Shown: in pieces, positions 30,490 through 56,656 of the stretch | Layout: each line of letters opens with the position of its first letter | How positions within the stretch are numbered: position 1 is the stretch's first letter | Assembly (NCBI RefSeq): GCF_900141705.1 | Contig: NZ_FQYM01000005.1 | Location: 62,001 to 126,000 of the forward strand | DNA from: Fibrobacter sp. UWP2 | GTDB lineage: Bacteria > Fibrobacterota > Fibrobacteria > Fibrobacterales > Fibrobacteraceae | Length of the DNA: 64,000 bases | Reading direction: 5' to 3' | Notes under the pieces: model-generated | Databases searched by the model: none | What the model was told of the DNA's origin: nothing | Seen by the model: the letters and a program-made list of their open reading frames with translations, nothing else | Position numbers and translations under genes: made by a program

Positions 30490-31839
30490 ATGAATCTGGC
30501 TGGTCGCAAACATATGTCGGGCTCCCGCAAGGCGGGCTTTACCCTCATGGAGCTGATGGTCTACATCGCCATCATGGGGATTGTCGTCATTGTGGCGGGG
30601 CAGGCGTTCAGTGATTCCACCAAGATGCGCATCCGTACGCAGAGCATGCTCAAGGCATCCGAAGTCGCCGAGAACGTGGCTGCAATAATGAAGGATGATC
30701 TTGCTCAGATGGGAGCGAAGAGCGCGATGAATTCCGCGAATGAATTCAGCGCTGTGTACAATGATGTCTATATGGACCCCGCAAATACCGCGGCGGATAA
30801 AGTTGATAAGTCGTCCTTCAAGCTGAACTCGGCGAGTGATTTGTCATTCCGACGAGTTCGGTATAGCGACAATGGAGTCTTTGTTTCCGTTGAAGAGGTC
30901 CGGTGGTGGCTGGATGGAAAAAAATTGAAAAGATCTTGCCGTACGGTGACTACCGAGACTACGATTGCCACAGATGACCCCTGCTCTGCCACCGACGTGG
31001 CTGGTGCAACGCAAAAAGCCGTCACCTATGCGGAAAACGTGGATTCCCTTTTATTTGTCATGGCGAAACCTTCTGTTACAGAGGATGCCGTTCAGTTGTT
31101 CCCACCTTCCAATGGTGACGAATTCATGCTTTTGCAGAGGGTAGATGAGCCAGCTCACTACCATATGATGAATGTAGAAAACAATGACAATATATCCACT
31201 TTATCTGGATTCGCGTACAACTATGAGGACAATGCGGCAACAAATGTAAATACCCCAGAAACTGCGGAACGAAATCAAGTCTATGTTGCCGAAAACAATA
31301 GTGACATTCTTCCGTGGAATACCGCTTGCACCAAGAAAAAAAACAAGTTCACGTTAAAGCCTCATGTGGTGTATGAACTTTCGTTCAGTTTGCCTTATAC
31401 GGGTGCCGATAACCAAGCCGATCCCGTACAAATGTTTGCTCCCGGTAGAGACCATATGTCAATCGGTTTCAGAAATAGCGACGGTACGATTCCTGCAGGC
31501 TGGAATGACTTCCTGTTCTACCCGTCAGTATCGTCAAATGCCAGCGAGAAAAGGACCATGCGCTTTAGTGTGGCGAACACCATTGAGGATGTCTGCATGG
31601 CATTTACATTCGTTAACTATCTCTCGGCAATCCATGATGGCAAGATAAAAATAAAGTCGCTGAAATTAAGACAACTTGCGACAGCAAACTACACTTTTGA
31701 TGATTGGTCGCCAGAATCGAGCATTCCCCAAAAAAAGAACGTAAAGGCGATGAAATTTATTTTGAAAACTAGCCAGAACGGCGAATCTGGCAGGGTGGAA
31801 ACTTTTGTCGCATTGCCTAGCAATGGACCCGAAGACTAA
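30490..31839 (+). CDS. Pseudopilin, GspJ/PilW-like
   Basis: A 449-residue prepilin-like protein with a basic leader, cleavage site KAG|FTLMELMVY and Glu +5, then a large beta-rich domain much longer than typical GspJ (about 200 residues). The ATG at 30490 has GAGGAAA at 30481-30487 and is preferred to the in-frame 30466. A 170-bp gap with inverted repeats separates it from the GspI-like gene. Its stop is 10 bp before the giant GspK-like gene. It is noticeably richer in Asn and Lys than the upstream genes. Confidence 0.8.
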   Translation: MNLAGRKHMSGSRKAGFTLMELMVYIAIMGIVVIVAGQAFSDSTKMRIRTQSMLKASEVAENVAAIMKDDLAQMGAKSAMNSANEFSAVYNDVYMDPANTAADKVDKSSFKLNSASDLSFRRVRYSDNGVFVSVEEVRWWLDGKKLKRSCRTVTTETTIATDDPCSATDVAGATQKAVTYAENVDSLLFVMAKPSVTEDAVQLFPPSNGDEFMLLQRVDEPAHYHMMNVENNDNISTLSGFAYNYEDNAATNVNTPETAERNQVYVAENNSDILPWNTACTKKKNKFTLKPHVVYELSFSLPYTGADNQADPVQMFAPGRDHMSIGFRNSDGTIPAGWNDFLFYPSVSSNASEKRTMRFSVANTIEDVCMAFTFVNYLSAIHDGKIKIKSLKLRQLATANYTFDDWSPESSIPQKKNVKAMKFILKTSQNGESGRVETFVALPSNGPED

Positions 31840-31849
31840 CGGAGGCTTT

Positions 31850-34800
31850 ATGAATATGTGGAACAAAAATGGTGTTTCACTTGTCACAGTGCTGCTATTC
31901 ATGTTGGTAGCAACTATTGCGGCCACAGCGACATTCAAGTGGCTTACGTCTGAAGGCCGTAGTTCTAGTTCGCGAATGCTGCAGCGAGAGGCGTACCAAA
32001 GTGCTATAGCCGGTATTGAGTCGGCGCGTTCTTGGATGACTTACCATGGCAATGACGTCGGGTCACTTATTAAGCAGTTCGAAGATAAACAGCTCAAAGA
32101 GGGGCATAGTGTACCTATTCTCTTGAATTCGCAGTTGACGGAACTCATTCGCCCGGGGCAGAACTTTAAGGTTTGGCTTGTTGGCGTGAACACATCCAAA
32201 TCTACGTACAAGTTAAAGTTGCTTTCAAAGGGCGAATCTAGAAATGGTTCGGCAAAACACAATGAACTTGCGATACTTAACGTCGATGGCCTATACCGAG
32301 TGAATATCCCGAAGGAAAAGGTTGTTAAAACGATTTCGTTTGAATACGACTATTATGGCGGATCCGTCGATGAAACTGCGGGTGGTATTAATGCGACTTC
32401 TATGGTAGTCAATGGAAACTGGACTGGAAACCCGACAGGTGTTAGTAAAAATTTCATTGTTACCGGGAATGCGACATTGACCGGTACCACCATTGTCGTC
32501 GGATCCGAAAATAACTGCATTGGCGGAGATTTTAAAGCGGAAAACGCCGGTGCCACGGGCGGCAACATATATGTGGGTGGTGATGGTACTGCGTTTAGCG
32601 GGAATTTTACGGGTAATGCCTACTTTGAAAACGAAGTCCAAATTGGTACTGGCGGAAATGGCCTTACTGTTACCAAAGATATGTACCTGGGCGACAAACT
32701 GACAATGAGGTCGCAAAAGGATATTAAAATCGATGGAAACCTTTGCCTTGGTGAAAATGCAACTGTGCAACTACATGAACATCTCGCGAATGCAACGGAA
32801 TTCAAGGTCAAAGGGAATCTTTGGATACCGCCTTCAAGTAGGGATTGGCTACTCCCTACTTCGACAAACAAAATTAATTTCAGTGATTACGATATCGACA
32901 ATGCCTCTAAAAGTGGATTTAAATTGTTTTTGGGTGAAAAAAAGCCGGGTATAGGTGCGGTGACGCCTAAAATCTATATGCCCAATGGGGTAAATTGTAG
33001 TTACAATAACAAATATTTTAAAGTGTACAAATCAACTGATGGCTCAGAACACAACATTGATATGGCGGACTATAATTTCGATAATGCATTCCAAGGTTGT
33101 GCTACATGGGTAGGACAAAAAGAAATCGGGTTCCAGGCTTGGGACAAAGGTGAGTATAATTCGGGTGAAAATTATTGTGTTGCTCCAGGAATTATGGGAA
33201 TGGGGTGTAGCTGGTCTGTCGAAAAAAAGTGGGATGTCTATAGCGACCATTGGATGATTTTTAGAACGACTGGTAATGTTGTCGGTTCATATACGGAAGA
33301 CAAGTTGGATTTCTCTTGCGGGGAATCTGCCAAGACCGCATGCAGCGACCTTTGGGAAGAAGGAACTGGTTGTAGTAATTCTAGTTATGTCGTTCCCGAT
33401 ATATTGAAGGCTGTGGATACGACTCTCCTTAAGCAGAGGGCGAACAGTGCTCAATGCATTGTTGATTTGTTGACCGGAGATGAAAACAACTTGAACAACA
33501 TGGACGTGACGGATTTGAACAATTGCTATTCTTCTTCTGCTGCGGATGAACTTTTCAATGGTTATCTAGTGATTAGCGATGACCAAGGGAAAATCGCAAA
33601 AATGTTGAGCAACCCGAGTGGGACGCTTAGGGGTAAATTCGTTTTTTATCCTAGATATAAACCAAGTTCGACTATTGCGCTACCACCGACGACGGCCGAT
33701 GCTTCCGTCCTAGTCTACCTCCCCGATGGTGCTTCAACAATCCAGCAATCGGGTTCCGGAGAACATTATAATTATTTCGTTTATTCTCTAAAAGACGTAG
33801 GCTCGCTTATGGGAAGCAACAAATGGACGGGCTCGTTCTATTTCCCGGTGAGCACCTGCGCACGTATTTCCAATATGCAAACGGCAGGAATGACGTTTGA
33901 GTCCAATTCAGACCTCATTGCGGATCTGACAAACGCCAGCCTCATATGCGACGTGAGTGTGGCCAAATGCGGATCGGGCTCGGGAGAGAGCGGCAGTAGT
34001 TCTTCAAGTGACCCGAGCAGTTCAGAAAGCTCAATAGATTTTGGCGGAGTAGACAGCTACTATATTTCGAATGCTCCACAGCTTTCAGTCTCGATAGAGT
34101 CCCAATACAAGAACAACGAGTCCGAGCCTTCCGGCAATGCAGAAAATAACGTGCAGGGTGACTTTATCGTTTTACCGAGGGTTATTTTTCTGCCGGCCGA
34201 TGCTCCGGGGCATCTCGATGATTACTACAACATTTTGCGGCTTAACAAGTATCCGGCATTCGAAAAAAGTGAAGGAGACGTCAGCTGTGATGCGGGTCTG
34301 CCTACTTCGGGCCTTTTGTCGGACCCCGCTAATCTTGCAACCGGCCAGTATCGCTGTACATACAGCTACAACAACAAGAATGTTAAGTTCTACGTTATCG
34401 TGAGCGGCCCCCAGGGCACGGACCCGCCCATCGGATTTAAAGAATCGTTCCATGAACTTGAAGCGACTGATTCCTATACTGTCAAACTGCACGTCCCTGC
34501 GCATGCAGCTACCTTGACGGTCAATTTCCAAAAACCCGATGATATCGATGATTGGAATGTTCAGCCTGCATCGGCTGCAGTTAATTGTGCAATGTCGCTA
34601 TGCAATGTTTCGATACCTTCTAACGCTTCTGAGCAAGACATCGACTTGTTCAATGTTACGACTTCGGGAGCCGAATCAGGCACGGCGATATTTACTCTCC
34701 GCCCAGGTGTCGGCTATAATGTTGGTGTTCCCGGCACGCTCACGCTCCAAATTCAGTCCAATCTGACGGTATACAGAGAAGAGGCAACTGCGGAACAATT

Positions 34801-37800
34801 GCAAGCGTATTGCGACGAGCACGACGGCTGCCCGGAAGATGTTTCCAAATGGCCTGAATGTCAGGATGTTGTAGAGCCCTGGGTGTTGATTTCGGGGTCG
34901 ATGTGCGTAACGAAGGAAGTCAACAATAGGTGGGTTTGCGCGACGGCGAGCGATATTAGCTTGAACGCCTCGGACAATGTTCCTGACGGTTGTATTTCGA
35001 TTGTACCCGATGAAGTCTTGCTGCAGAGTACATTGGTCAAAGGTGATGACCGCTATCTGCACGCAAGTTTAAAGGCTCAACAAATTCCATTCAGGTTTGG
35101 ATTTGCCGGCAAGGATGTCCCTAATGGCACAAAGATTTGGGCTACAGTCTCGCATTCTTCGTTGGCTAGTAGGAATGGCCTAAAGAAGGTGTGTACTTTC
35201 GGCACGGATGTTAAGGAGATTGGTGCAACTTGCACGCTAGATGTCTTCTCTGGTGAACGTGTGCGCCTTTCCTTTGATGATGATGATAACGACGAAAATG
35301 ATGCAAAGCCTACTGGTTTCCATTATTGGAGTTGTACCGGTGACAATTGCCCTGTGGACAATACGGATGCACCTCGCTTCGCTCCGTTTGCCATTAGTGC
35401 AGCCAACAATGCGGTATATGCGCACTTTAACGAGCTAGACAAGCATTGCTTCTTTGATGAGTTCAAAAAGGGAATGGACTGTACGGACGACGGATATTGC
35501 ATAGGCTATTCCGGAGAAAACGCAAAGTGGAACGTGATTGCGGAAAGCGGGTCCGACACTCCGCTTGATCGTCTTGAATATGGCGATGGCTACATCGCTC
35601 TCAAGTCCGGTGCTGCAAGAGGCGCCAACAAGCAGAACGTGACCCTTATGAGCACGGCTGTTGCAGGAACTAGGGGGTATCTCAAAGCTCAGTTCCGCCC
35701 ATCTCGATTGCTCACTGTTAATCAGGCAAGTCTACCGTCAACTGTCACGAATTCTGGATTCTTTATCCATGCCGATGAATCTGCCGGCAACGGCTTGTTC
35801 CTTACCATATACATTGATAAGGATTCCAAGGTTGTAGCTCGTTTACTTGACAACGCTGAACCGAAAAATGTATATGAAAAATTCTTGAAAAAAGATGGCA
35901 ACTCGCTGGTTATGCCTCAATCGGAGCCATTGATCACGTTGACGGTTGATGTGGTTGAAAATCGGCTAACAGTTTCTGTAATAAAGGAAAGGTACTATGG
36001 TGACCAGCCGGAAACCTACACGGCTGTTTTCGAATTGGAAAATTACTCACCGACTGGGGAATATGTCGGGCTGCGCTTGGCGGACCCGAGCATCAAGCTC
36101 TATGACATCGGCTGGAAAAGCGACACCTATTTTGCAGAATGTTGGGATACCTACCCGACTCTGAGCTGTTCTTTCAAGGGAACGTTCCCCGGGGCCGTAG
36201 TTCCCAAAGGCAAGGATGTTCTGCCTTGGGTTGGGCTTTCAAGCTGGTTTGACGCCAAGGGGTGCTATCGCAAATACTATTATCAAGGCGATGATGCCTG
36301 CAGTGCAGGAAACAGCGATTATAGTCCATGCTCGCCCTCCTATAATTTCTCGGAGACGGGTGCTCACGGATATACCCAGGATGGGGTCGAAATAAAAACT
36401 GCTCGAGCCGGAGTCGGCGACTGCTTCAACCTGGGCGATGAGAAGGACAAGTTCCTTGCTCAGTCGGAATGGGCTCATTGTGGGGCCTTCTGGGTTGGCG
36501 AACAGAAAGAGTGCAAAAAAACTGTAGATTTTTTGGGTGATATTGCATCTAGTGTTAGTTCCGCTGTTACCAACTTTAATTTAGTGACGGGAACTGCGAA
36601 CGTTCGTTCTTCTGACATCGTTGTTGAGTTGGAAGATAACAATGAACGTCGCCGCGTCGAAATTTACCTGTTGAGCCAAGAAGACATTGGCGCTCCTGTA
36701 CACTATAGCAAATCGGGCTATCTAACTTTTGAAGCGGGTGGCTCTAAGACAGCAAGCATCAAGGCCGAGGAACTGTTTGATGCGGATGGATTCAATCCTG
36801 AAAAGGTATACGGCATTGCGTTGCTGGTTCTGGAAGGGAGTGCTGTAAATGTCGACAAGCTCTATTCTTATTGCCCGAAAGCGCCTGTTTGCAAGGATAG
36901 TAAGGTGGAGTATATAGGAGACCATTGGCTTGTAACAACAAATTTGACAAATTATGTTAATACTGTCGGGACCTTTGTTGTGCAAGAGAATAACAACTAC
37001 ATAACTCCTGACTATACGTGCACGAATGATGGGTGCGATTATGAGGAGCTTGCATCTCCTACTAATACCGCAAAGTACAAATTCTCAATCGAGGATAATC
37101 CGTGGAGTGGACATGTAGGTGACACGTATAGGTTTACAGTAACGTTGACAACAAAGAGTGGAGACGAACTGAATTGTGGCCAAACAAACGAGAAGAAAAT
37201 TGATCCTGTTGCTATAAGTTGTCTTGGTCTTACGACTGACAACCCCGATAGGCTTGTTGGTGGAGGTCTTCCTCAGTTTAAGTACAAGGTGGGCAATTGC
37301 CCTCCGACCGGTTGCCCGTGGAAGATTACTCTCGAAAGGGGTGGAAACTGGGTGGCTGATATTACGAGCGGGACTGCAGCTACTGTTGGCACTGATGGTG
37401 TGAATACGGATTCTGACGCTGCAAATACGGAAGAAGATCCTTTGACGGCAGGGACTGGGTACTACTTTAAGTTGCAGCCTGTCACGGGCGATGATGCAAT
37501 CGACTTTGACCCCTGTGAGTCTGGCAAATTTGAAATCAAGGAAGTTGTCTCCAGTAGCAGTGAGCAGAGTAGCAGTTCTAGTGAAGAGAGTAGCAGCAGT
37601 GAAGAAGAAAGTAGCAGCTCTGTCGCTTCGAGCAGTAGTGCTGGGGGTGGATTCTCTTGCACTTACACAGGTACAACAGGTGTAAAAATCCAGGGAGGAG
37701 TCGGCAATCAAAATTTGACTTCGACAAACGCACCGCATGCACAATATGACCTGTACATTGATGGTGAAAAAAAGGTTTCCGGTACTTGGGGACTTGGATT

Positions 37801-38743
37801 CAATTTTACTACACCTACTTCGCTCGGCAACCATACCTATAAGGTTACTAAAATGGGAGAAACTGCTGCACAATGTCAGGGATCTTTTGAAGTGGTCGAC
37901 CCGTTGGAATGTAGTGTCGATGATGTAATTCCATTGAATGTTGCAAGTACATTTAGCGTGTCCGTGATGACTGGCTTTAGTTGCTCAAATTGCAATTACA
38001 CTAATGTTAATTGCGGATCCAGTTGTAACGGAGGGGGTGTAACCAATTACAACTTTACGCTAACAAACATGAATACAACAGAATTGAAGGTAAAATGTCA
38101 GTGCAACGACAACATCTATCAGACATGTACAAAATCTGTCAAAGCTGTTCGTACCGTACCGACGTTTAGTTGCAAAACGGGGCTGAAAGCCACCGTAGGT
38201 GAAACGAACAATGTGAAAATTGTTTTGCAGGGTGTCACTGGTTGTGATGAAAATAGCCCTTGGTGTCTCTCCAGCATTACGGGAGACGATATCAGCGTGC
38301 AAAATGGGATTAATGTAGGCGATGGTACGGTGAATCTTGGTGCCTTCACAGATACAGGAACTGATGGGGTAAGCAAGAGTTACACCGTCACTCTTGAAAA
38401 TTCTGCCGGCGTCAGTGCACCGAAAAATTGTAGTGTGGAGTTTGCCGCAGGTTCCAGCGGAACGACAATCGCAAGTGATGTTTGGGAATTCACTAATCCC
38501 AGTGGCACGGAATTTTGTTTTGATGAGCACCCCGTTCAATATGATTGGCAATCAAAAGCCCATATCAGATGTGAATCAGGCAATAATGCGAATGGTCATG
38601 TTACTTTAGATGGAACAGAAGCCTCGCATGGGTGGGAAACTGTAGAAATTACAGTTGATTTGGATGGAAATAAAAAGTACACAGGATGCCACACTGCATC
38701 TCGAAGAGATGGTGGCGATGTAAAATGTTACTTTGGATGGTAA
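31850..38743 (+). CDS. Giant GspK/PilX-like pseudopilin with adhesin-like domains (2,297 aa)
   Basis: The N-terminus is a prepilin leader KNG|VSLVTVLLFMLVATIAATATF; residue +5 is Thr, not Glu, as in tip-located GspK/PilX proteins. It is followed by a Gly/Asn-rich repeat region with beta-strand patterns (about residues 170-330), a Ser-rich linker (about 707-729), beta domains, and a LamG/concanavalin-like region (about 1200-1430, with YLKAQFRPSR and ending GLRLADPS). A second Ser/Glu linker lies at about 1901-1932, then Cys-rich Ig-like repeats to the end. GGAGG at 31841-31845 fixes the start. It is the last gene of the cluster. Typical GspK has about 300 residues, so the size points to an adhesin on a pseudopilus tip (inference). 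Confidence 0.8.
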   Translation: MNMWNKNGVSLVTVLLFMLVATIAATATFKWLTSEGRSSSSRMLQREAYQSAIAGIESARSWMTYHGNDVGSLIKQFEDKQLKEGHSVPILLNSQLTELIRPGQNFKVWLVGVNTSKSTYKLKLLSKGESRNGSAKHNELAILNVDGLYRVNIPKEKVVKTISFEYDYYGGSVDETAGGINATSMVVNGNWTGNPTGVSKNFIVTGNATLTGTTIVVGSENNCIGGDFKAENAGATGGNIYVGGDGTAFSGNFTGNAYFENEVQIGTGGNGLTVTKDMYLGDKLTMRSQKDIKIDGNLCLGENATVQLHEHLANATEFKVKGNLWIPPSSRDWLLPTSTNKINFSDYDIDNASKSGFKLFLGEKKPGIGAVTPKIYMPNGVNCSYNNKYFKVYKSTDGSEHNIDMADYNFDNAFQGCATWVGQKEIGFQAWDKGEYNSGENYCVAPGIMGMGCSWSVEKKWDVYSDHWMIFRTTGNVVGSYTEDKLDFSCGESAKTACSDLWEEGTGCSNSSYVVPDILKAVDTTLLKQRANSAQCIVDLLTGDENNLNNMDVTDLNNCYSSSAADELFNGYLVISDDQGKIAKMLSNPSGTLRGKFVFYPRYKPSSTIALPPTTADASVLVYLPDGASTIQQSGSGEHYNYFVYSLKDVGSLMGSNKWTGSFYFPVSTCARISNMQTAGMTFESNSDLIADLTNASLICDVSVAKCGSGSGESGSSSSSDPSSSESSIDFGGVDSYYISNAPQLSVSIESQYKNNESEPSGNAENNVQGDFIVLPRVIFLPADAPGHLDDYYNILRLNKYPAFEKSEGDVSCDAGLPTSGLLSDPANLATGQYRCTYSYNNKNVKFYVIVSGPQGTDPPIGFKESFHELEATDSYTVKLHVPAHAATLTVNFQKPDDIDDWNVQPASAAVNCAMSLCNVSIPSNASEQDIDLFNVTTSGAESGTAIFTLRPGVGYNVGVPGTLTLQIQSNLTVYREEATAEQLQAYCDEHDGCPEDVSKWPECQDVVEPWVLISGSMCVTKEVNNRWVCATASDISLNASDNVPDGCISIVPDEVLLQSTLVKGDDRYLHASLKAQQIPFRFGFAGKDVPNGTKIWATVSHSSLASRNGLKKVCTFGTDVKEIGATCTLDVFSGERVRLSFDDDDNDENDAKPTGFHYWSCTGDNCPVDNTDAPRFAPFAISAANNAVYAHFNELDKHCFFDEFKKGMDCTDDGYCIGYSGENAKWNVIAESGSDTPLDRLEYGDGYIALKSGAARGANKQNVTLMSTAVAGTRGYLKAQFRPSRLLTVNQASLPSTVTNSGFFIHADESAGNGLFLTIYIDKDSKVVARLLDNAEPKNVYEKFLKKDGNSLVMPQSEPLITLTVDVVENRLTVSVIKERYYGDQPETYTAVFELENYSPTGEYVGLRLADPSIKLYDIGWKSDTYFAECWDTYPTLSCSFKGTFPGAVVPKGKDVLPWVGLSSWFDAKGCYRKYYYQGDDACSAGNSDYSPCSPSYNFSETGAHGYTQDGVEIKTARAGVGDCFNLGDEKDKFLAQSEWAHCGAFWVGEQKECKKTVDFLGDIASSVSSAVTNFNLVTGTANVRSSDIVVELEDNNERRRVEIYLLSQEDIGAPVHYSKSGYLTFEAGGSKTASIKAEELFDADGFNPEKVYGIALLVLEGSAVNVDKLYSYCPKAPVCKDSKVEYIGDHWLVTTNLTNYVNTVGTFVVQENNNYITPDYTCTNDGCDYEELASPTNTAKYKFSIEDNPWSGHVGDTYRFTVTLTTKSGDELNCGQTNEKKIDPVAISCLGLTTDNPDRLVGGGLPQFKYKVGNCPPTGCPWKITLERGGNWVADITSGTAATVGTDGVNTDSDAANTEEDPLTAGTGYYFKLQPVTGDDAIDFDPCESGKFEIKEVVSSSSEQSSSSSEESSSSEEESSSSVASSSSAGGGFSCTYTGTTGVKIQGGVGNQNLTSTNAPHAQYDLYIDGEKKVSGTWGLGFNFTTPTSLGNHTYKVTKMGETAAQCQGSFEVVDPLECSVDDVIPLNVASTFSVSVMTGFSCSNCNYTNVNCGSSCNGGGVTNYNFTLTNMNTTELKVKCQCNDNIYQTCTKSVKAVRTVPTFSCKTGLKATVGETNNVKIVLQGVTGCDENSPWCLSSITGDDISVQNGINVGDGTVNLGAFTDTGTDGVSKSYTVTLENSAGVSAPKNCSVEFAAGSSGTTIASDVWEFTNPSGTEFCFDEHPVQYDWQSKAHIRCESGNNANGHVTLDGTEASHGWETVEITVDLDGNKKYTGCHTASRRDGGDVKCYFGW

Positions 38744-50344: not shown

Positions 50345-50695
50345 ATGCCACGCGCTAAAACCAGAGTTCCTTCCCGCGAACGCCGCAAAAAAATCCTCAA
50401 GGCCGCCAAGGGCTTCTACGGCCGTCGCAAGTCGAACCTTCGCCTTGCCATTGACGCTGTAGCCCACGCCGGTCAGTATGCCTACGCCCATCGCCGCGAC
50501 AAGAAGGGCACGTTCCGCTCCCTGTGGATCGTCCGCCTCAATGCCGCCGTCCGTGAGCACGGCATCAGCTATAGCCAGTTCATTTACAAGCTTTCCAAGG
50601 CCAACATCAAGATGAACCGCAAGGTTCTCGCCGACATGGCCGTCGCCGATCCTGAAGCATTCGCCAAGGTCGTCGAAGTCGTGAAGGCTGCTTAA
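50345..50695 (+). CDS. rplT: 50S ribosomal protein L20
   Basis: A 116-residue basic protein with [30 protein letters not shown] and [23 protein letters not shown] (L20 pattern). AAGGAG lies before the ATG. L20 represses its own operon in other bacteria; no leader structure was examined here. Its last 19 codons or so and the following 29 bp recur at 50887-50972. Confidence 0.97.
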
Positions 50696-50724
50696 TAGCT
50701 GACTTAGCGAAAACGCGAGAAATT
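50639..50724 (+). repeat. Copy A of an 86-bp direct repeat: rplT 3' end and downstream
   Basis: The end of rplT and the start of its 3' flank. It is identical to copy B at 50887-50972 except T at 50653 for G at 50901. The two lie 248 bp apart, with different sequence between. Confidence 0.95.
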
Positions 50725-50759
50725 GTCCCCTGCCGGTAAAACGGCGGAGGACTTTTTTT
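50725..50759 (+). terminator. Terminator of the infC-rpmI-rplT operon
   Basis: GTCCCCTGCCG (50725-50735) pairs with CGGCGGAGGAC (50742-50752), one mismatch, then seven T. Confidence 0.88.
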
Positions 50760-50886: not shown

Positions 50887-50972
50887 GCCGTCGCCGATCC
50901 GGAAGCATTCGCCAAGGTCGTCGAAGTCGTGAAGGCTGCTTAATAGCTGACTTAGCGAAAACGCGAGAAATT
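50887..50972 (+). repeat. Copy B of the 86-bp repeat: rplT 3' end remnant
   Basis: It matches 50639-50724 with one substitution, including the rplT stop codon and 29 bp of flank. No start or upstream part of rplT is present, so it is a partial duplication. Confidence 0.95.
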
Positions 50973-51003
50973 CGCCCTGCTCCTTGCGAGTGGGGCGTTT
51001 TTT
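50973..51003 (+). terminator. Second terminator after the rplT-tail duplication
   Basis: CGCCCTGCTC (50973-50982) pairs with GAGTGGGGCG (50988-50997), including G-T pairs, then six T. Its sequence is unrelated to the terminator after copy A. Confidence 0.82.
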
Positions 51004-51091
51004 GTGCGTTTGTAAAAAAAATGACAGACGAGCTTGTATGCAAATAAAAAGATTATATTCAAAAATAGACGGCCTAAAAAAAGAGTGAAAA

Positions 51092-54000
51092 ATGAGTTTT
51101 TTTCGTAGGCTAATTATGACGTGTGCAGTATCCAGCTGTGCATATGCAGTTACTGTCTATACTATGGACGAACAGTTTTCTCACAAAAAACAGACCGTTT
51201 TAAGGTTTAAAGTTGAAAATAATTCCAGCGATACTTTGAATGGTATAGAGCTGCGTTATCATGTTGTTGGGGATACATCCATTATTGAGGCTCCTGAATA
51301 CTATTATTTTCCTGAGGGATCGGCCAATTGGTCGTTTGAAGATTCTGTTAATGCGACGCTTGTTATTTACTTTCCAGAAGTTATTCTGTATCCTGGAGAC
51401 GTGTTGGGAGGAAGTTCAGGCTATGCTATAGGTCTTCATAACAAGGAGTGGGCTGTATGGACAAAGGCGGATGACCCCTCTCAACCGAAATCAGAGTTCT
51501 TTTCTGTTGCGGAAAATGTAGAGGTCCTATCTGGCGGAAAATCGTTGATGCCTGATCTCGGAAAATATACAGGTTGTCCGGTGGTACAATTTGTTGCGGT
51601 AACTAAGGATTCAGTTTCGTTGCAGATTAAACAGCAATCGGATGCTGATTTGGCCTCAATTGCGATAAAAAATAAAAATGGTATTGTCGTATCGGCGAAT
51701 TTGAATGAGTCTACAATTGATGCAATGGGTCAAAAGATTTGGCATGGTTATATGCCGACACAAGATACTGTAGAACATCGAGGTGAAATATGGGCTGAAT
51801 GTAATGGACAACTTCTTTCATATTTTGCTTATGGTTGGAAGCCAACGGGTGCCATGGATGCGGTGAAAAAAAATCTTTGGCCTTCTACAGATTCCTTTGT
51901 GAGAGCTGATTTTGATATGGGATTCAATCAGGGGCTAATTGAAGGTCAACGACTGGTTTTACAGAAAGATTCTCTTGGGCAATATCTGGATGCCCGTCGT
52001 ACAGAAAATTGGAAATTTTATCGCACTTGGGAAGAGCCGGGAGAGAATCCGATGCCTGTAATTTGGTCATCGCCACTTATGCAATATGACGAAAGTGATA
52101 TTGATTCGCTAACTCTAGAATGGAGCCCCATTGAAGAGGTGAATTGGTATCGACTTCTTGTTATAAGGGATTCTTTGGTGGGGGATTCCGTATTATTCGT
52201 TGATACAACGGTCTCTATGTTCACGATGCGTACATCGGTGAAAATACCTGTTCTTCCTGCAGGAAAATATGTATGGTATGTTGACCCACTTATAGAAGTT
52301 CCAACAGATGAAAATATAGAGGGAGAAGAGTACTACATTATAACAGGCGATGACGCTAATCCTGAAAGTGGCAACTTGAGTGGGAATCCCCCTGTACTAA
52401 GAGCTCCTTGGCACAAAAGGGTTGGTAGATGGGCGAAAAAGACAGTGAAGAAAGCTGTTGAATATATTTCTCCAGCGACTAAGGTTACTCAGGATATTGC
52501 TACAGGAAATTTGACATGGAATAATGCTCTTACATATACGGGTAGTTTTTTGGTGAATAGGGTCAATCCCTTTGGGTTTATACAGATTTTTGTTCACACG
52601 GAAACGATTCATACGAGGGTTAATGCGGTAACAAAAAATATGGAATGGCTGCAAAAAACATATGATGATAGATATGTTTACAATGCTCTTTTGACGGATA
52701 AATGCTTTGGCTCGTCTGCGTTTTGTGCAATGAAGGATTCGAGAATGTTGGCTGAAAATTGGAATGTAGGATTTAATGAAAAAAATTGGGATAGAGTTTT
52801 TCCGAAAAAAGATGTGAACGGAAATACAAATTATGCGGTCCATAACCGCTGCTGGCTGACAATGGCGCAAATGATAAATCATTACAAGGGTGGAAATATT
52901 GCTTCTGATGAAATACTATATAATGTAAGGGGTGGGTTTAGTGACACAGCAGTCAGTAATGCGATTGAATCAATGCAGGCTGTGAATTACGCATTGGGCC
53001 TAGATGTGTGGGACCAGGTTACTCATAATACGTTGTTAAATAGTTTTAAGGCGACGGGATTAATCCCGTCAGTTGATGGCTGGTCTGCGGGAACCCCGTT
53101 TTTGCATACAATAATTACAACAATTGAATCGGGAAATGTTCTCGGGGTTACGCAAAGTAATGGTGGTGCGCATGGTGGGCATGCAATGGTTTTAAATGGA
53201 TATAAAATTAAGAGTAATGGTAACGTAGATATACATTTATTGAATGTTGACAATATGGGCGGAAGTGAATGGCGATATTATTGCAACATTTCTTTTCTTG
53301 GATTGGATGTTGTTGTGCGATTTGTTGTTAATGGGATAGGACAACTAGTTGATCTTATAAGGGATCAAGAAGATAATGGAAAAAATTTGAGTGGGGATAT
53401 GTTCCTATTTTACTACATTCCCCCGCAGGGAGTACATGGACGTCTTGCAAATGCGAGCGTTTTTGAAGATTCAGATGGTGATAGTATTGTAGATATAGAT
53501 GAAAACAAACGTTTCGGAACGAATCCATTGAGGCCGGATTCAGACGGAGATGGAATAAATGACTATAATGAAATTCTCGATTTTAAAAAGTGTGAAACAT
53601 ATGGTGGGTATTATGTTTCGTCAATAGCGACCCTTATAGATCTTGAGCCGCAAATGTCCTATGTATTACAATCAGATTTTGATGGTGATGGCCTTCATGC
53701 CGCAGTGGATAGAGATTCTGATGGCGATGGATATTGTGATGGCCAAGAACAGGGCTTTTTGGAGATGGAATCAATTCATAAATGCGAAAGATTTGATGCG
53801 AGAAAACATCCTGAAGGAGTGATTCCTCTTTGCAATGAAGTTCGGGTGGCTCTTCTTGCTAAGGAAAAACTTCAACTTAATGATAGAGCGTCGTGTATCG
53901 CTTTGAATGGCTTGTTTTGCCCAGTAGCTTCTTATGAAAACTCCTTTAATGACCTTTATGGCGTGCGACTTGGGGTTGACGCTTCTGTGGGTAATGTGTA

Positions 54001-54712
54001 TTCTACAAAGTCTGTGTTGTTACGAGATAGGGCAAAGGTGTATGGAAACTTGGAAACGGCAGGAAATGTTGTGAGGCAAAGTTCAACTGCATTAATTACG
54101 GGAAATGTTGTTGAAGGTTCTACTCAATCTAATGAAAATATTGCTAGGTATGAATCTATATTTAATGATGTTGTGGTTAATGGAGATTTTACAATATATC
54201 GCAATCGTAATATAAATTCGGGAGAATTTATGTATTCCAATATTTTGGGTGCTGGATCGAATAATACAGAATTTAATTTTAATTCTGGTTCAAACCTTGT
54301 GCTCAATGTGACTGGAAATTTTCTAGTTGGCTCACTTAAATTTCAGCATGGCTCAAAGCTTTACGTTCCTGCTGAAGGCGATGTGGTTTTCCATGTTGGA
54401 AATGATTTTCAATGGAACGGAACTGTTGAAACAAATGATATGATTTCTGCGGCGCAGCATGTCATGATTTATTACTATGGCGTAAATAGGGTGTTTGTGC
54501 AGACTGATTTTGCAGGTACAATTGTTGCTCCGAATGCGGAAGTGGTTGTTGGTCAGTCGGGTAAGAATTTTTATGGAGCGATATACGCAAAGAGTATTGT
54601 GGTCCATCAAAATGCAAAAATTACTTGGGTGCCGTTTGCTCCTCTGCCAAAGAATACGGTTGTAGCCGGTGTTGGTGATTTTAGTTTGCCTAGCTATGTC
54701 TTTTTTTATTAA
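51092..54712 (+). CDS. Secreted papain-like cysteine protease-like multidomain protein (1,206 aa)
   Basis: The signal peptide is short (residues 1-19). Residues about 25-150 resemble a cellulose-binding CBM3-like beta domain (VLRFKVENNSSDTLNGIELRY). Residues about 575-740 look like a papain-fold peptidase: Cys587 in NRCWLTMAQMINHYKGG, His697 in GAHGGHAMVLNGY and Asn nearby in LLNVDNMGG. Residues about 793-890 have thrombospondin-type Asp-rich calcium repeats (DSDGDSIVD, DSDGDGIND, DSDGDGYCD). The C-terminal part (about 1000-1190) is a beta-rich domain, seen in other surface proteins, with GTIVAPNAEVVVGQSGKNFYGAIYAKSI. Base composition is clearly more AT-rich than the rest of the window. AAAGAGTG is a weak ribosome site. 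Confidence 0.78.
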   Translation: MSFFRRLIMTCAVSSCAYAVTVYTMDEQFSHKKQTVLRFKVENNSSDTLNGIELRYHVVGDTSIIEAPEYYYFPEGSANWSFEDSVNATLVIYFPEVILYPGDVLGGSSGYAIGLHNKEWAVWTKADDPSQPKSEFFSVAENVEVLSGGKSLMPDLGKYTGCPVVQFVAVTKDSVSLQIKQQSDADLASIAIKNKNGIVVSANLNESTIDAMGQKIWHGYMPTQDTVEHRGEIWAECNGQLLSYFAYGWKPTGAMDAVKKNLWPSTDSFVRADFDMGFNQGLIEGQRLVLQKDSLGQYLDARRTENWKFYRTWEEPGENPMPVIWSSPLMQYDESDIDSLTLEWSPIEEVNWYRLLVIRDSLVGDSVLFVDTTVSMFTMRTSVKIPVLPAGKYVWYVDPLIEVPTDENIEGEEYYIITGDDANPESGNLSGNPPVLRAPWHKRVGRWAKKTVKKAVEYISPATKVTQDIATGNLTWNNALTYTGSFLVNRVNPFGFIQIFVHTETIHTRVNAVTKNMEWLQKTYDDRYVYNALLTDKCFGSSAFCAMKDSRMLAENWNVGFNEKNWDRVFPKKDVNGNTNYAVHNRCWLTMAQMINHYKGGNIASDEILYNVRGGFSDTAVSNAIESMQAVNYALGLDVWDQVTHNTLLNSFKATGLIPSVDGWSAGTPFLHTIITTIESGNVLGVTQSNGGAHGGHAMVLNGYKIKSNGNVDIHLLNVDNMGGSEWRYYCNISFLGLDVVVRFVVNGIGQLVDLIRDQEDNGKNLSGDMFLFYYIPPQGVHGRLANASVFEDSDGDSIVDIDENKRFGTNPLRPDSDGDGINDYNEILDFKKCETYGGYYVSSIATLIDLEPQMSYVLQSDFDGDGLHAAVDRDSDGDGYCDGQEQGFLEMESIHKCERFDARKHPEGVIPLCNEVRVALLAKEKLQLNDRASCIALNGLFCPVASYENSFNDLYGVRLGVDASVGNVYSTKSVLLRDRAKVYGNLETAGNVVRQSSTALITGNVVEGSTQSNENIARYESIFNDVVVNGDFTIYRNRNINSGEFMYSNILGAGSNNTEFNFNSGSNLVLNVTGNFLVGSLKFQHGSKLYVPAEGDVVFHVGNDFQWNGTVETNDMISAAQHVMIYYYGVNRVFVQTDFAGTIVAPNAEVVVGQSGKNFYGAIYAKSIVVHQNAKITWVPFAPLPKNTVVAGVGDFSLPSYVFFY

Positions 54713-54719
54713 GGTGCAT

Positions 54720-55322
54720 ATGTGGAAAATACATTGGCTCATATTGGCTTTGATTCTTTGCTCTATTTTGGGGTGCTATCCAAATGGGGATGGCATGGAG
54801 TGCTTTGGAAAAGACCGTTATGCTAGTCTGAATTTTTTGACGACAACTCCAGTGGACAGTGTCCAGTTCTATTTAGATGAACAAAGGATTTGTTATGGGG
54901 ATGTTGGCCATTATTATAAACTAGTCGTTTGCAAAAGTTTAACAACGGATGCTGATGTTGCTTCTGATTTTTTTTCAGAAAAGTGTATGGCTTCCGAAAA
55001 AGAAAAAACTTGGACAATTTTTCACTGTTATGTTGGCAAACCATCTGATGGTGTTGTTGTAAGTTCAAAAGAATTACGTGTCAAAGTTTTTTCGACTAAT
55101 CGGGAAAAGATTGACATTCCTCTTGGTTCTCTTGGTGGACTAATTACAAATGTTTTTCCTGAACGCGATTCAGCGGAATGGTTTGGGTACAGAGATAATC
55201 CAATAAGACCTTTTTTGGATGATTTTTATTCTCCTGCCTTATCAATGCGAAAAGGTTGTTTTAATGGCTTTTGTGTAGCTTCTTTGCCGATGGTTGATAA
55301 AGAAGTATGCTATGACAAATGA
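54720..55322 (+). CDS. AT-rich lipoprotein of unknown function
   Basis: A 200-residue lipoprotein: signal then lipobox CSILGC with Cys at about residue 17. It has many Cys (about 10) in the mature part, possibly disulfides. The ATG at 54720 is preceded by AAGGTG; the frame extends to 54669 but that overlaps the papain-like gene. It has the same AT-rich codon use as that gene and lies 7 bp after it, so the two are probably a unit. Confidence 0.68.
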   Translation: MWKIHWLILALILCSILGCYPNGDGMECFGKDRYASLNFLTTTPVDSVQFYLDEQRICYGDVGHYYKLVVCKSLTTDADVASDFFSEKCMASEKEKTWTIFHCYVGKPSDGVVVSSKELRVKVFSTNREKIDIPLGSLGGLITNVFPERDSAEWFGYRDNPIRPFLDDFYSPALSMRKGCFNGFCVASLPMVDKEVCYDK

Positions 55323-55338
55323 CAATTTTTGAAAATTG

Positions 55339-55367
55339 TTGTTCGCATGTGGCAAAAAATCTAAATT
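55339..55367 (+). promoter_or_regulatory. Promoter of the M16 peptidase gene
   Basis: -35 TTGTTC (55339-55344), 17-bp spacer, -10 TAAATT (55362-55367). The ATG at 55376 lies 8 nt downstream of the -10, so the mRNA would be leaderless or nearly so. Confidence 0.6.
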
Positions 55368-55375
55368 TCCCTTTG

Positions 55376-56656
55376 ATGAAGAAAATACAGAGGTCTCATT
55401 ACCGGCGCACGGTGTTGCCGAACGGCGTTGTCGTGCAGACGGACTATATGCCGCACGCCTATTCCGCGTCCGTAGGAGCTTGGCTCCCGCGCGGATCCCG
55501 CCACGAGAAGGCGGACGAATTTGGATTGAGTCATTTTTACGAACATCTTGTTTTCAAGGGCACGGAAAACCGTTCCGCCCTGGATATCGCGCGCAGTGTC
55601 GAAGACCGCGGCGGTAACCTGGAAGCGTACACGACGCGCCAGGAGACGGGCTTTTACGCGAACGTCGTCGCGGAAGACGTGCCGCTCGCGGTGGATGTGA
55701 TTGCCGATATGCTCATGAACCCGCGCTTCGAAAAGTCCGACATGGAAAAGGAGCGCAAGGTCATTATCGAGGAAATCCACAGCTACGACGATATTCCCGA
55801 GGAGCTGGCGGGAGACGTGTTCAACGCGGCGCACTTTGCGGGTTGCGGCATTGCGCATTCCATTACGGGCAAGGCGCGCGACGTTCGTTCGCTGACGCTG
55901 GAACAGATGTGGGAATACGAAAGGCAGGTGCTCGAGGATTTCCCGGTGTACGTGTGCGCGGCGGGCAAGGTGGACCACGAAACTCTTGTGGATATTTGTC
56001 GCAAGAAATTTTCTGCCAAGAAGTCGGGCAAAAAGACTCCCTCCGATGTGTACTGTGCCAATTCGGGCATCAAGATTGTGTCGAAGCAGGATGTCCAGCA
56101 GTCGAACCTCTTTTGGGGAACGAGCTTTGGCTCGGATATGCTCGAACCGCGCAACCGCTATGCCATTTCGCTATTCAATGTGGCGATGGGGGCTGGCATG
56201 TCGAGCCGCCTGTTCCAAAAGATCCGCGAGGAGCGCGGGCTTGCCTATTCGGTGTACTCGACCATCGACGTTTACCGCGACTGCTTGGACTGGGGGGTGG
56301 CTTTGGCGACGGAACCGCGCCGTTTAAAGACTGCAGTTTCGCTCTCCAGTGATGAAATCAACCGGTTCTTGCGGGATGGTTTTACGAAGGGTGAACTTGA
56401 TCGCACTCGGGCGAACATCCTTGGGAATATGCGCGTTGGAGCCGACAGCCCCGAAAAGCGGGTGATGCGCCTTGCCGAGCAAACGCTCCATTTGGGCCGC
56501 GTGTTCTCGATGCACGAGGTGGAACGAGGCTTGTTGACGCTCACCGAGGACGAGGTGATGGACGTCGTGCGCACAGCCTTCGAAGCAGGCAAGCGCACCA
56601 TCGCCGTGGTGCAACCCGACGACGCCAAGAAAACGGACTTGAAAGAATTTCTTTAA
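55376..56656 (+). CDS. M16 family zinc metallopeptidase (processing-peptidase-like)
   Basis: A 426-residue protein with the inverted zinc motif H53-F-Y-E56-H57 and the distal Glu in ERKVIIEEIHSYDD (about residues 125-138). The C-terminal half has the second M16 domain with the R/Y pattern SSRLFQKIREERGLAYSVYS. No signal peptide is seen, so it is cytoplasmic or exported by other means. The start at 55376 is chosen because the family begins RRTVLPNGVVV soon after; the open frame reaches back to 55319. It converges with the helicase gene (stops overlap). Confidence 0.9.
   Translation: MKKIQRSHYRRTVLPNGVVVQTDYMPHAYSASVGAWLPRGSRHEKADEFGLSHFYEHLVFKGTENRSALDIARSVEDRGGNLEAYTTRQETGFYANVVAEDVPLAVDVIADMLMNPRFEKSDMEKERKVIIEEIHSYDDIPEELAGDVFNAAHFAGCGIAHSITGKARDVRSLTLEQMWEYERQVLEDFPVYVCAAGKVDHETLVDICRKKFSAKKSGKKTPSDVYCANSGIKIVSKQDVQQSNLFWGTSFGSDMLEPRNRYAISLFNVAMGAGMSSRLFQKIREERGLAYSVYSTIDVYRDCLDWGVALATEPRRLKTAVSLSSDEINRFLRDGFTKGELDRTRANILGNMRVGADSPEKRVMRLAEQTLHLGRVFSMHEVERGLLTLTEDEVMDVVRTAFEAGKRTIAVVQPDDAKKTDLKEFL

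Follow-up and report, generated by a model that had tools for sequence, protein, structure and literature searches.

A putative toxin-immunity-like pair in Fibrobacter sp. UWP2: a horizontally acquired, predicted papain-like protease and its lipoprotein partner

The 64,000-nucleotide stretch of DNA analysed here (the window; Fibrobacter sp. UWP2, assembly GCF_900141705.1, contig NZ_FQYM01000005.1, positions 62,001-126,000 of the forward strand), which belongs to a draft genome of 3.23 Mb, contains an AT-rich island encoding a large secreted protein with a papain-like protease domain (P1) and, immediately behind it, a Cys-rich lipoprotein (P2). It is moderately probable that the two constitute a horizontally acquired toxin-immunity-like pair, that is, a polymorphic-toxin-like protease and an envelope immunity protein. 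The computed data cover domain architecture, catalytic triad, gene linkage, orphan arrays, 3'-end scars, mosaic alleles, selection, lineage restriction, an empty insertion site and a type IX secretion system (T9SS). Genes of the protease and partner families were counted in 61 Fibrobacter genomes, and a protease-region profile was used to survey 167 genomes of the phylum at a threshold of E 1e-10. The labels L and G (e.g. L168, G012) denote loci and genomes, respectively, of the relatives compared.

Architecture of P1

From its N-terminus, P1 consists of a signal peptide, a CBM3 domain, an unassigned middle region, the papain-like protease, TSP3-like repeats and a DUF7305-like C-terminus (Table 1). 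The original prediction had proposed a triad of Cys587, His697 and a nearby Asn, and these residues, the last being Asn721, proved virtually invariant in the family (Table 1). Members of the family match the Pfam peptidase families C39_2 (best 1.1e-6), C70 (1e-4) and C10 (5e-4); P1 itself matches C70 alone, and weakly (E 0.27, 11.6 bits vs a cut-off of 19). The AlphaFold2 model of the domain is papain-like (predicted local distance difference test, pLDDT, 77; predicted template modelling score, pTM, 0.78). Its top Foldseek matches are 9l5u, a papain-like protease toxin/immunity pair, and 8ssm, a CdiA-CT toxin (E 1e-3 to 7e-3, probability 0.99-1.00). From its title, we take PDB entry 9l5u to be the Cpe1-Cpi1 pair. 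Re-alignment with VIA gave staphopain as the best match (Z 14.9, root-mean-square deviation 2.7, 153 residues aligned), followed by ComA C39 (Z 12.9), 9l5u (12.7) and 8ssm (12.3). Since Foldseek favours the toxins and VIA puts staphopain first, the papain fold of the modelled domain is secure, but its nearest subfamily is not. With a Cys-His-Asn/Asp triad placed in a papain fold by the model, P1 has the hallmarks of a clan CA peptidase and is predicted to be proteolytic.

The CBM3-like nature of the N-terminal domain, also foreseen, was upheld by a profile of 19 members. It matched solved CBM3 structures at E 7e-10, and the alignment included the conserved DW motif. Pfam CBM_3 matches eight of these 19 members; the CBM3 region of P1 by itself has no Pfam match. 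By fold and profile the domain can be placed with CBM3, and it would presumably bind cellulose. In several Fibrobacter genomes, very large proteins of 3000-4100 amino acids (aa) that have no match to the protease region contain parts matched by the CBM3-like domain of P1.

The anticipated calcium-binding repeats turned out to be TSP3-like, and the C-terminal beta domain to resemble DUF7305. Weak matches of this last domain in family members to pAdhesive_15 (ice-binding adhesin) and bactofilin suggest that it forms a beta-helix. A separate toxin tip behind DUF7305 was considered and rejected, because most members end within approximately 20 aa of P1 position 1190 and because the orphan 3' fragments described below represent the structural end only. 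The T9SS sorting tail TIGR04183 has no match in P1; matches were found in one subfamily member (L102, 1.3e-5) and one partner gene (L091, 4.4e-7). The UWP2 genome does encode a T9SS, as indicated by SprA (1139 bits) and around 40 open reading frames (ORFs) with Por_Secre_tail above cut-off, and this system has also been proposed for F. succinogenes (PMC6851124).

All of the 43 phylum genomes (out of 167) that match the protease-region profile belong to Fibrobacteraceae, a few of the matches covering the calcium repeats only. Judged by this survey, the P1 family is lineage-specific, multi-copy and found only in Fibrobacteraceae among the genomes searched. Within Fibrobacter, 44 protease-domain genes are spread across 24 of the 61 genomes, with three copies in UWP2.

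P2 and the partner genes

P2 agrees with its initial description as a Cys-rich lipoprotein encoded 7 bp away: its gene starts 7 bp after that of P1, and the protein carries the lipobox SILG-C19 and 10 Cys. Its model is an Ig-like beta-sandwich (pLDDT 78). An inhibitor or immunity family was sought for P2 and none was found in Pfam or NCBIfam; a staphostatin/Spi-type fold (lipocalin-like barrel or propeptide-like) was looked for as well, and the model had no strong structural match (best Z 5.0). The P2 family (A4, here type A) comprises 35 genes in 20 of the 61 Fibrobacter genomes. No P2-type gene was found in other genera among 60 relatives, and L168, from a Fibrobacteraceae metagenome-assembled genome (MAG), does carry them.

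A secreted partner gene directly follows 28 of the 29 complete CBM3-protease-DUF7305 genes that lack a sorting tail of their own (26/29 if two unclassified genes of about 450 aa are excluded), at a distance of -43 to +384 bp, nearly always between -20 and +20. It is absent at all eight big genes that lack CBM3 or bear a T9SS-like tail. The partners are of three types: P2-like lipoproteins (A), proteins of about 270 aa with a T9SS-like tail (B) and PDZ proteins that likewise end in such a tail (C). BLAST shows no relationship between types A and B. It was also observed that the PDZ-type partner stands behind one subtype of the big protein (L096, L101, L104, L129, L131 and L133), and that in L096 and L101 it is followed by an M6-like metallopeptidase gene, the partner logic here differing from that of the lipoproteins. 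Two lines of enquiry were abandoned. An apparent natural deletion of the protease in L124 contains a run of N, and partner identity gave no guide to which domain it might bind, since all domains correlate with it (r 0.88-0.94) and regression did not single out the protease (p 0.11).

Given that P1 lacks a recognised T9SS tail and that its tail-bearing relatives lack partners, the main structural rival to an immunity role is that of a secretion or surface-anchoring adaptor, which would give the tail-less big protein its outer-membrane location through a lipid anchor or, in types B and C, through a T9SS-like domain. The T9SS-like tails of these two types, the secretion machinery of the UWP2 genome and the retention of a partner beside a protease-less CBM3-DUF7305 protein in L162 all suit such an adaptor. 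We nevertheless regard it as unlikely, as most partner genes adjoin no big gene and form arrays, partners are under purifying selection even where no protease gene was detected, P2-type partners have no carboxy-terminal domain (CTD) and an adaptor has no cause to diversify between near-identical ends.

Orphan partners, 3'-end scars and mosaic alleles

Only five of the 35 type-A genes lie beside a protease gene, the other 30 being orphans, while 26 of the 104 type-B genes listed do so. The type-B count overstates the mobile orphans, because about 20 of these genes (approximately 300 aa; L143 in G000:C33, L144 in G003:C1 and others) look like a single orthologue that is near-core in the genus. 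The immunity family may have descended from this gene, or the gene may itself confer broad immunity as a resident. Partner genes form 17 tandem arrays, of which the largest, in G028, is a run of six or seven lipoprotein genes. In nine of the 20 genomes with type A the protease gene was not found, many of these being incomplete drafts. The ratio of nonsynonymous to synonymous substitution (dN/dS) of orthologous orphan partners is mostly 0.16-0.4, i.e., under purifying selection, which indicates that the orphans are functional.

Directly upstream of many orphan partners are short ORFs that match the big protein only in its final 30-90 residues; loci with such remnants were chosen partly by that same match and so give no measure of its frequency. 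At L168, an intact P1 homologue with its lipoprotein gene is followed by three more lipoprotein genes, and copies of the 3' end of the putative toxin gene (142-144 nt, up to 94-96% identity) lie between these four successive genes. The repeated blocks of L168, together with the near-identical signal peptides and divergent mature parts of the G028 array, might recall a variable surface-antigen system in which the lipoproteins are the varied product and the 3'-end copies serve as anchors for silent cassettes. Such a system is very improbable here: each gene in the arrays is a complete ORF that has its own start and lipoprotein signal and is spaced as in an operon, unlike a silent partial cassette, and the invariant protease triad would be left unexplained.

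Two alleles at the proB site, L094 and L097, have flanks with 94-96.5% DNA identity. Their proteins are 98-100% identical between residues 51 and 150 and 90-98% identical at the C-terminal end, but only 38-46% in the protease. The same mosaic pattern is seen in L093 and L152. A catalytic core that is more variable than the ends, with the triad invariant, is the pattern of polymorphic toxins.

A second alternative concerns the protease itself, which may be a secreted nutritional or matrix-processing enzyme that digests fibre-associated or host proteins, with the partner as a self-protecting inhibitor and without any interbacterial warfare. The domain is nearest to staphopain by VIA (values above), and the gene order of protease followed by envelope inhibitor resembles that of Bacteroides fragilis, as described in PMC2873492. 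This explanation does not predict orphan arrays under selection in genomes without a detected protease gene, nor does it predict 3'-end scars or a catalytic domain that is hypervariable between alleles. It is improbable, though somewhat less so than the adaptor. Among the roles first suggested for the lipoprotein (partner, inhibitor or surface anchor), that of an inhibitor or immunity protein appears to fit best with the orphans, arrays, 3'-end scars and purifying selection.

Origin of the island

Codon use and base composition had been predicted to shift sharply at about 51.05 and 55.37 kb. Measured as GC content and as GC at third codon positions (GC3), the shift was evident: GC, about 55% up to approximately 51.0 kb, lies at 38-42% from there to approximately 55.3 kb, where it recovers, the island having 0.392 compared with a mean of 0.533 (standard deviation 0.042) in 1-kb windows elsewhere in the window. 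GC3 of the two island genes is 0.32 and 0.28. Two further stretches of lower GC within the window (30.8-38.8 kb) are milder, at 43-47%. Uniform composition of such genes across the genome had been named as a refuting condition, and a family-wide tendency bears on it: most of the P1 family is low in GC, 40 of 41 genes being lower than their flanks (median 0.413 vs 0.513), with three nearly at host composition.

The closest relative, G012, has an empty site with approximately 70 bp separating rplT (99% identical to that of the window) from the M16 peptidase gene (82% identical), from which the rough extent of the insert follows (Table 1). A foreign origin of the island is supported by these sequence comparisons. 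The best homologue of P1 is encoded at L168 (56% identity across 1198 aa), whereas relatives within its own genus reach only about 25-30%. L168 comes from a yak caecum MAG of Fibrobacteraceae, and its 10.9 kb locus has 25-39% GC throughout. An AT-rich donor within Fibrobacteraceae is probably the best explanation of the island.

The 3' end of rplT is duplicated (50639-50729 and 50887-50977; 91 nt, 97%) with a conserved spacer. This duplication was rejected as an integration scar; it is also present in several relatives without the island and is therefore older than it. Beside the infC-rpmI-rplT operon that the window island also adjoins, just upstream of infC, sits L162 (G064:C1, 2103-3892), and this neighbourhood is a possible insertion hotspot.

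Table 1. Features of the island and its borders, in window coordinates.
Feature	Position	Strand	Basis or remark
AT-rich insertion between rplT and M16 peptidase gene	50978..55358		GC 0.392; approximately 70 bp in G012 instead
rplT, left border gene	50345..50695	+	Flanking gene
P1, putative toxin of 1206 aa, secreted papain-like protease with several domains	51092..54712	+	ORF
P1 Sec signal peptide (MSFFRRLIMTCAVSSCAYA)	51092..51148	+	Sequence; homologues start likewise
CBM3 cellulose-binding-like domain, aa 20-157	51149..51562	+	Similarity of the 19-member profile to solved CBM3 structures
Papain-like protease domain, aa 533-780	52688..53431	+	Pfam matches in members, AlphaFold2 model, Foldseek, VIA
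Predicted catalytic Cys587 codon	52850..52852	+	C in 44/44 family members
Predicted catalytic His697 codon	53180..53182	+	H in 44/44 family members
Predicted catalytic Asn721 codon	53252..53254	+	N in 43/44 family members
TSP3-like calcium-binding repeats, aa 790-886	53459..53749	+	Weak TSP3_bac matches, invariant Asp pattern
C-terminal beta domain, DUF7305-like, aa 905-1190	53804..54661	+	DUF7305 33.1 bits, cut-off 27
P2, 200-aa Cys-rich lipoprotein, putative immunity protein	54720..55322	+	ORF; lipobox Cys at 54774-54776
M16 peptidase gene, right border	55376..56656	+	Likely start 55376, from orthologous start in G012

Elsewhere in the window, a very large ORF of about 2300 aa and GC 0.46 (31766-38743) gave a weak PilX N-terminal match and lies in a milder low-GC stretch, and the gene directly before it carries a prepilin methylation motif.

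Proposed function and significance

Several observations weigh against P1-P2 being a toxin-immunity-like pair. The Foldseek matches to toxins are marginal (E 1e-3), and staphopain and C39 score no worse by VIA. The protease is internal (aa 533-780 of 1206), with the TSP3 and DUF7305-like domains behind it in all complete members. No recognisable inhibitor fold was seen in P2, for which the Foldseek and VIA matches were unconvincing. PDZ proteins ending in a T9SS-like tail occur among the partners, which is unusual for immunity, and the near-core type-B orthologue has no protease nearby. L132 is a full-length big gene with its partner missing, and at L162 an intact type-B partner gene stands behind the gene for an in-frame CBM3-DUF7305 protein of 338 aa that lacks the protease.

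From the computed data we infer toxicity of P1, its target and export route, its tethering to cellulose and its inhibition by P2, in the following manner. P1 would be exported by Sec and then probably across the outer membrane, and its CBM3 domain would gather it on the cellulose fibres that are the site of competition between Fibrobacter and its close relatives. There the calcium-stabilised papain-like domain may cut an envelope or surface protein of neighbouring cells, while P2, lipid-anchored in the envelope of the producer, would neutralise the protease. Such systems may be exchanged by recombination, with the protease core swapped between conserved ends. When a new unit enters, the old partner genes would be left behind as immunity arrays tagged by copies of the toxin-gene 3' end.

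It is also possible, on a more tentative footing than the pair itself, that Fibrobacteraceae in general compete for plant fibre with lineage-specific, CBM3-tethered, surface-acting polymorphic protease toxins, that immunity lies in the envelope (lipoproteins or T9SS-exported proteins) and not in the cytoplasm, and that the toxin 3' ends are the recombination joints through which arrays grow. Full-text literature searches (Fibrobacter with polymorphic toxins; T9SS with immunity proteins) found no antagonism system for Fibrobacter. As Fibrobacter is a main cellulose degrader of the rumen, this proposal, if true, would give strain-level competition on fibre a molecular basis that can be tested. 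It would likewise add an unusual class of toxin, with the envelope as both its site of action and the seat of immunity, and would show immunity arrays growing through recombination at a structural 3' end. Specificity is directly testable on the natural variants and putative orphan immunity genes, which number in the dozens.

Comparison with known systems

Papain-like protease toxins with immunity are known in type VI secretion systems (T6SS) and contact-dependent inhibition (CDI) (PMC12136450). Cpe1/Cpi1 and the CdiA-CT of Citrobacter rodentium (8ssm) share with P1 a papain/C39-like fold, a Cys-His dyad and an adjacent dedicated partner gene. They are, however, small C-terminal domains delivered to the cytoplasm by T6SS or CDI and countered by cytoplasmic immunity, whereas the P1 protease is internal to a predicted Sec-exported CBM3/TSP3/DUF7305 protein and its partner is an envelope lipoprotein.

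A secreted papain-like protease followed by a small inhibitor gene, as proposed for P1-P2, also characterises staphopain-staphostatin (C47), SpeB-Spi and the Bacteroides C10 proteases Bfp-Bfi (PMC2873492). The Bacteroides inhibitors are located in the envelope, and two Bfi are predicted lipoproteins (PMC2873492). These systems lack the CBM3/TSP3/DUF7305 chassis of P1, and orphan inhibitor arrays, 3'-end scars and a polymorphic core, all features of the P1 family, are not mentioned in the passages of PMC2873492 consulted.

The TANFOR polymorphic toxins proposed in Bacteroidetes, for which a T9SS link is thought likely, resemble P1 in being large, Sec-exported and multidomain with downstream immunity genes (PMC7073777). 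They differ in their N-terminal domain (TANFOR) and in their nuclease or other C-terminal toxins, and the paper describing them mentions neither papain-like toxins nor Fibrobacter nor lipoprotein immunity (PMC7073777).

With the orphan modules of CDI and Rhs and with the arrays of orphan immunity genes in gut Bacteroidales (Ross et al., 2019, cited in PMC12483513), the P1 family has in common putative immunity genes that were displaced and persist downstream beside toxin-end fragments, and arrays of such genes without toxins. The P1 family differs in that its fragments are the 3' end of the structural C-terminus only, not a toxin domain, and in that the loci examined showed neither a T6SS nor a recombinase link.

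P1-P2 is not assigned to any one known family, because the toxin module of CDI, Rhs and TANFOR proteins lies at the extreme C-terminus and that of P1 does not. Two other features of those systems do have counterparts: conserved ends with an interchangeable toxin module in the L094 and L097 alleles, and orphan immunity-like modules with toxin-end fragments at loci of the P1 family. Where those systems have an immunity gene immediately downstream, 28/29 complete genes of the P1 family have an adjacent secreted partner gene, a candidate for that role.

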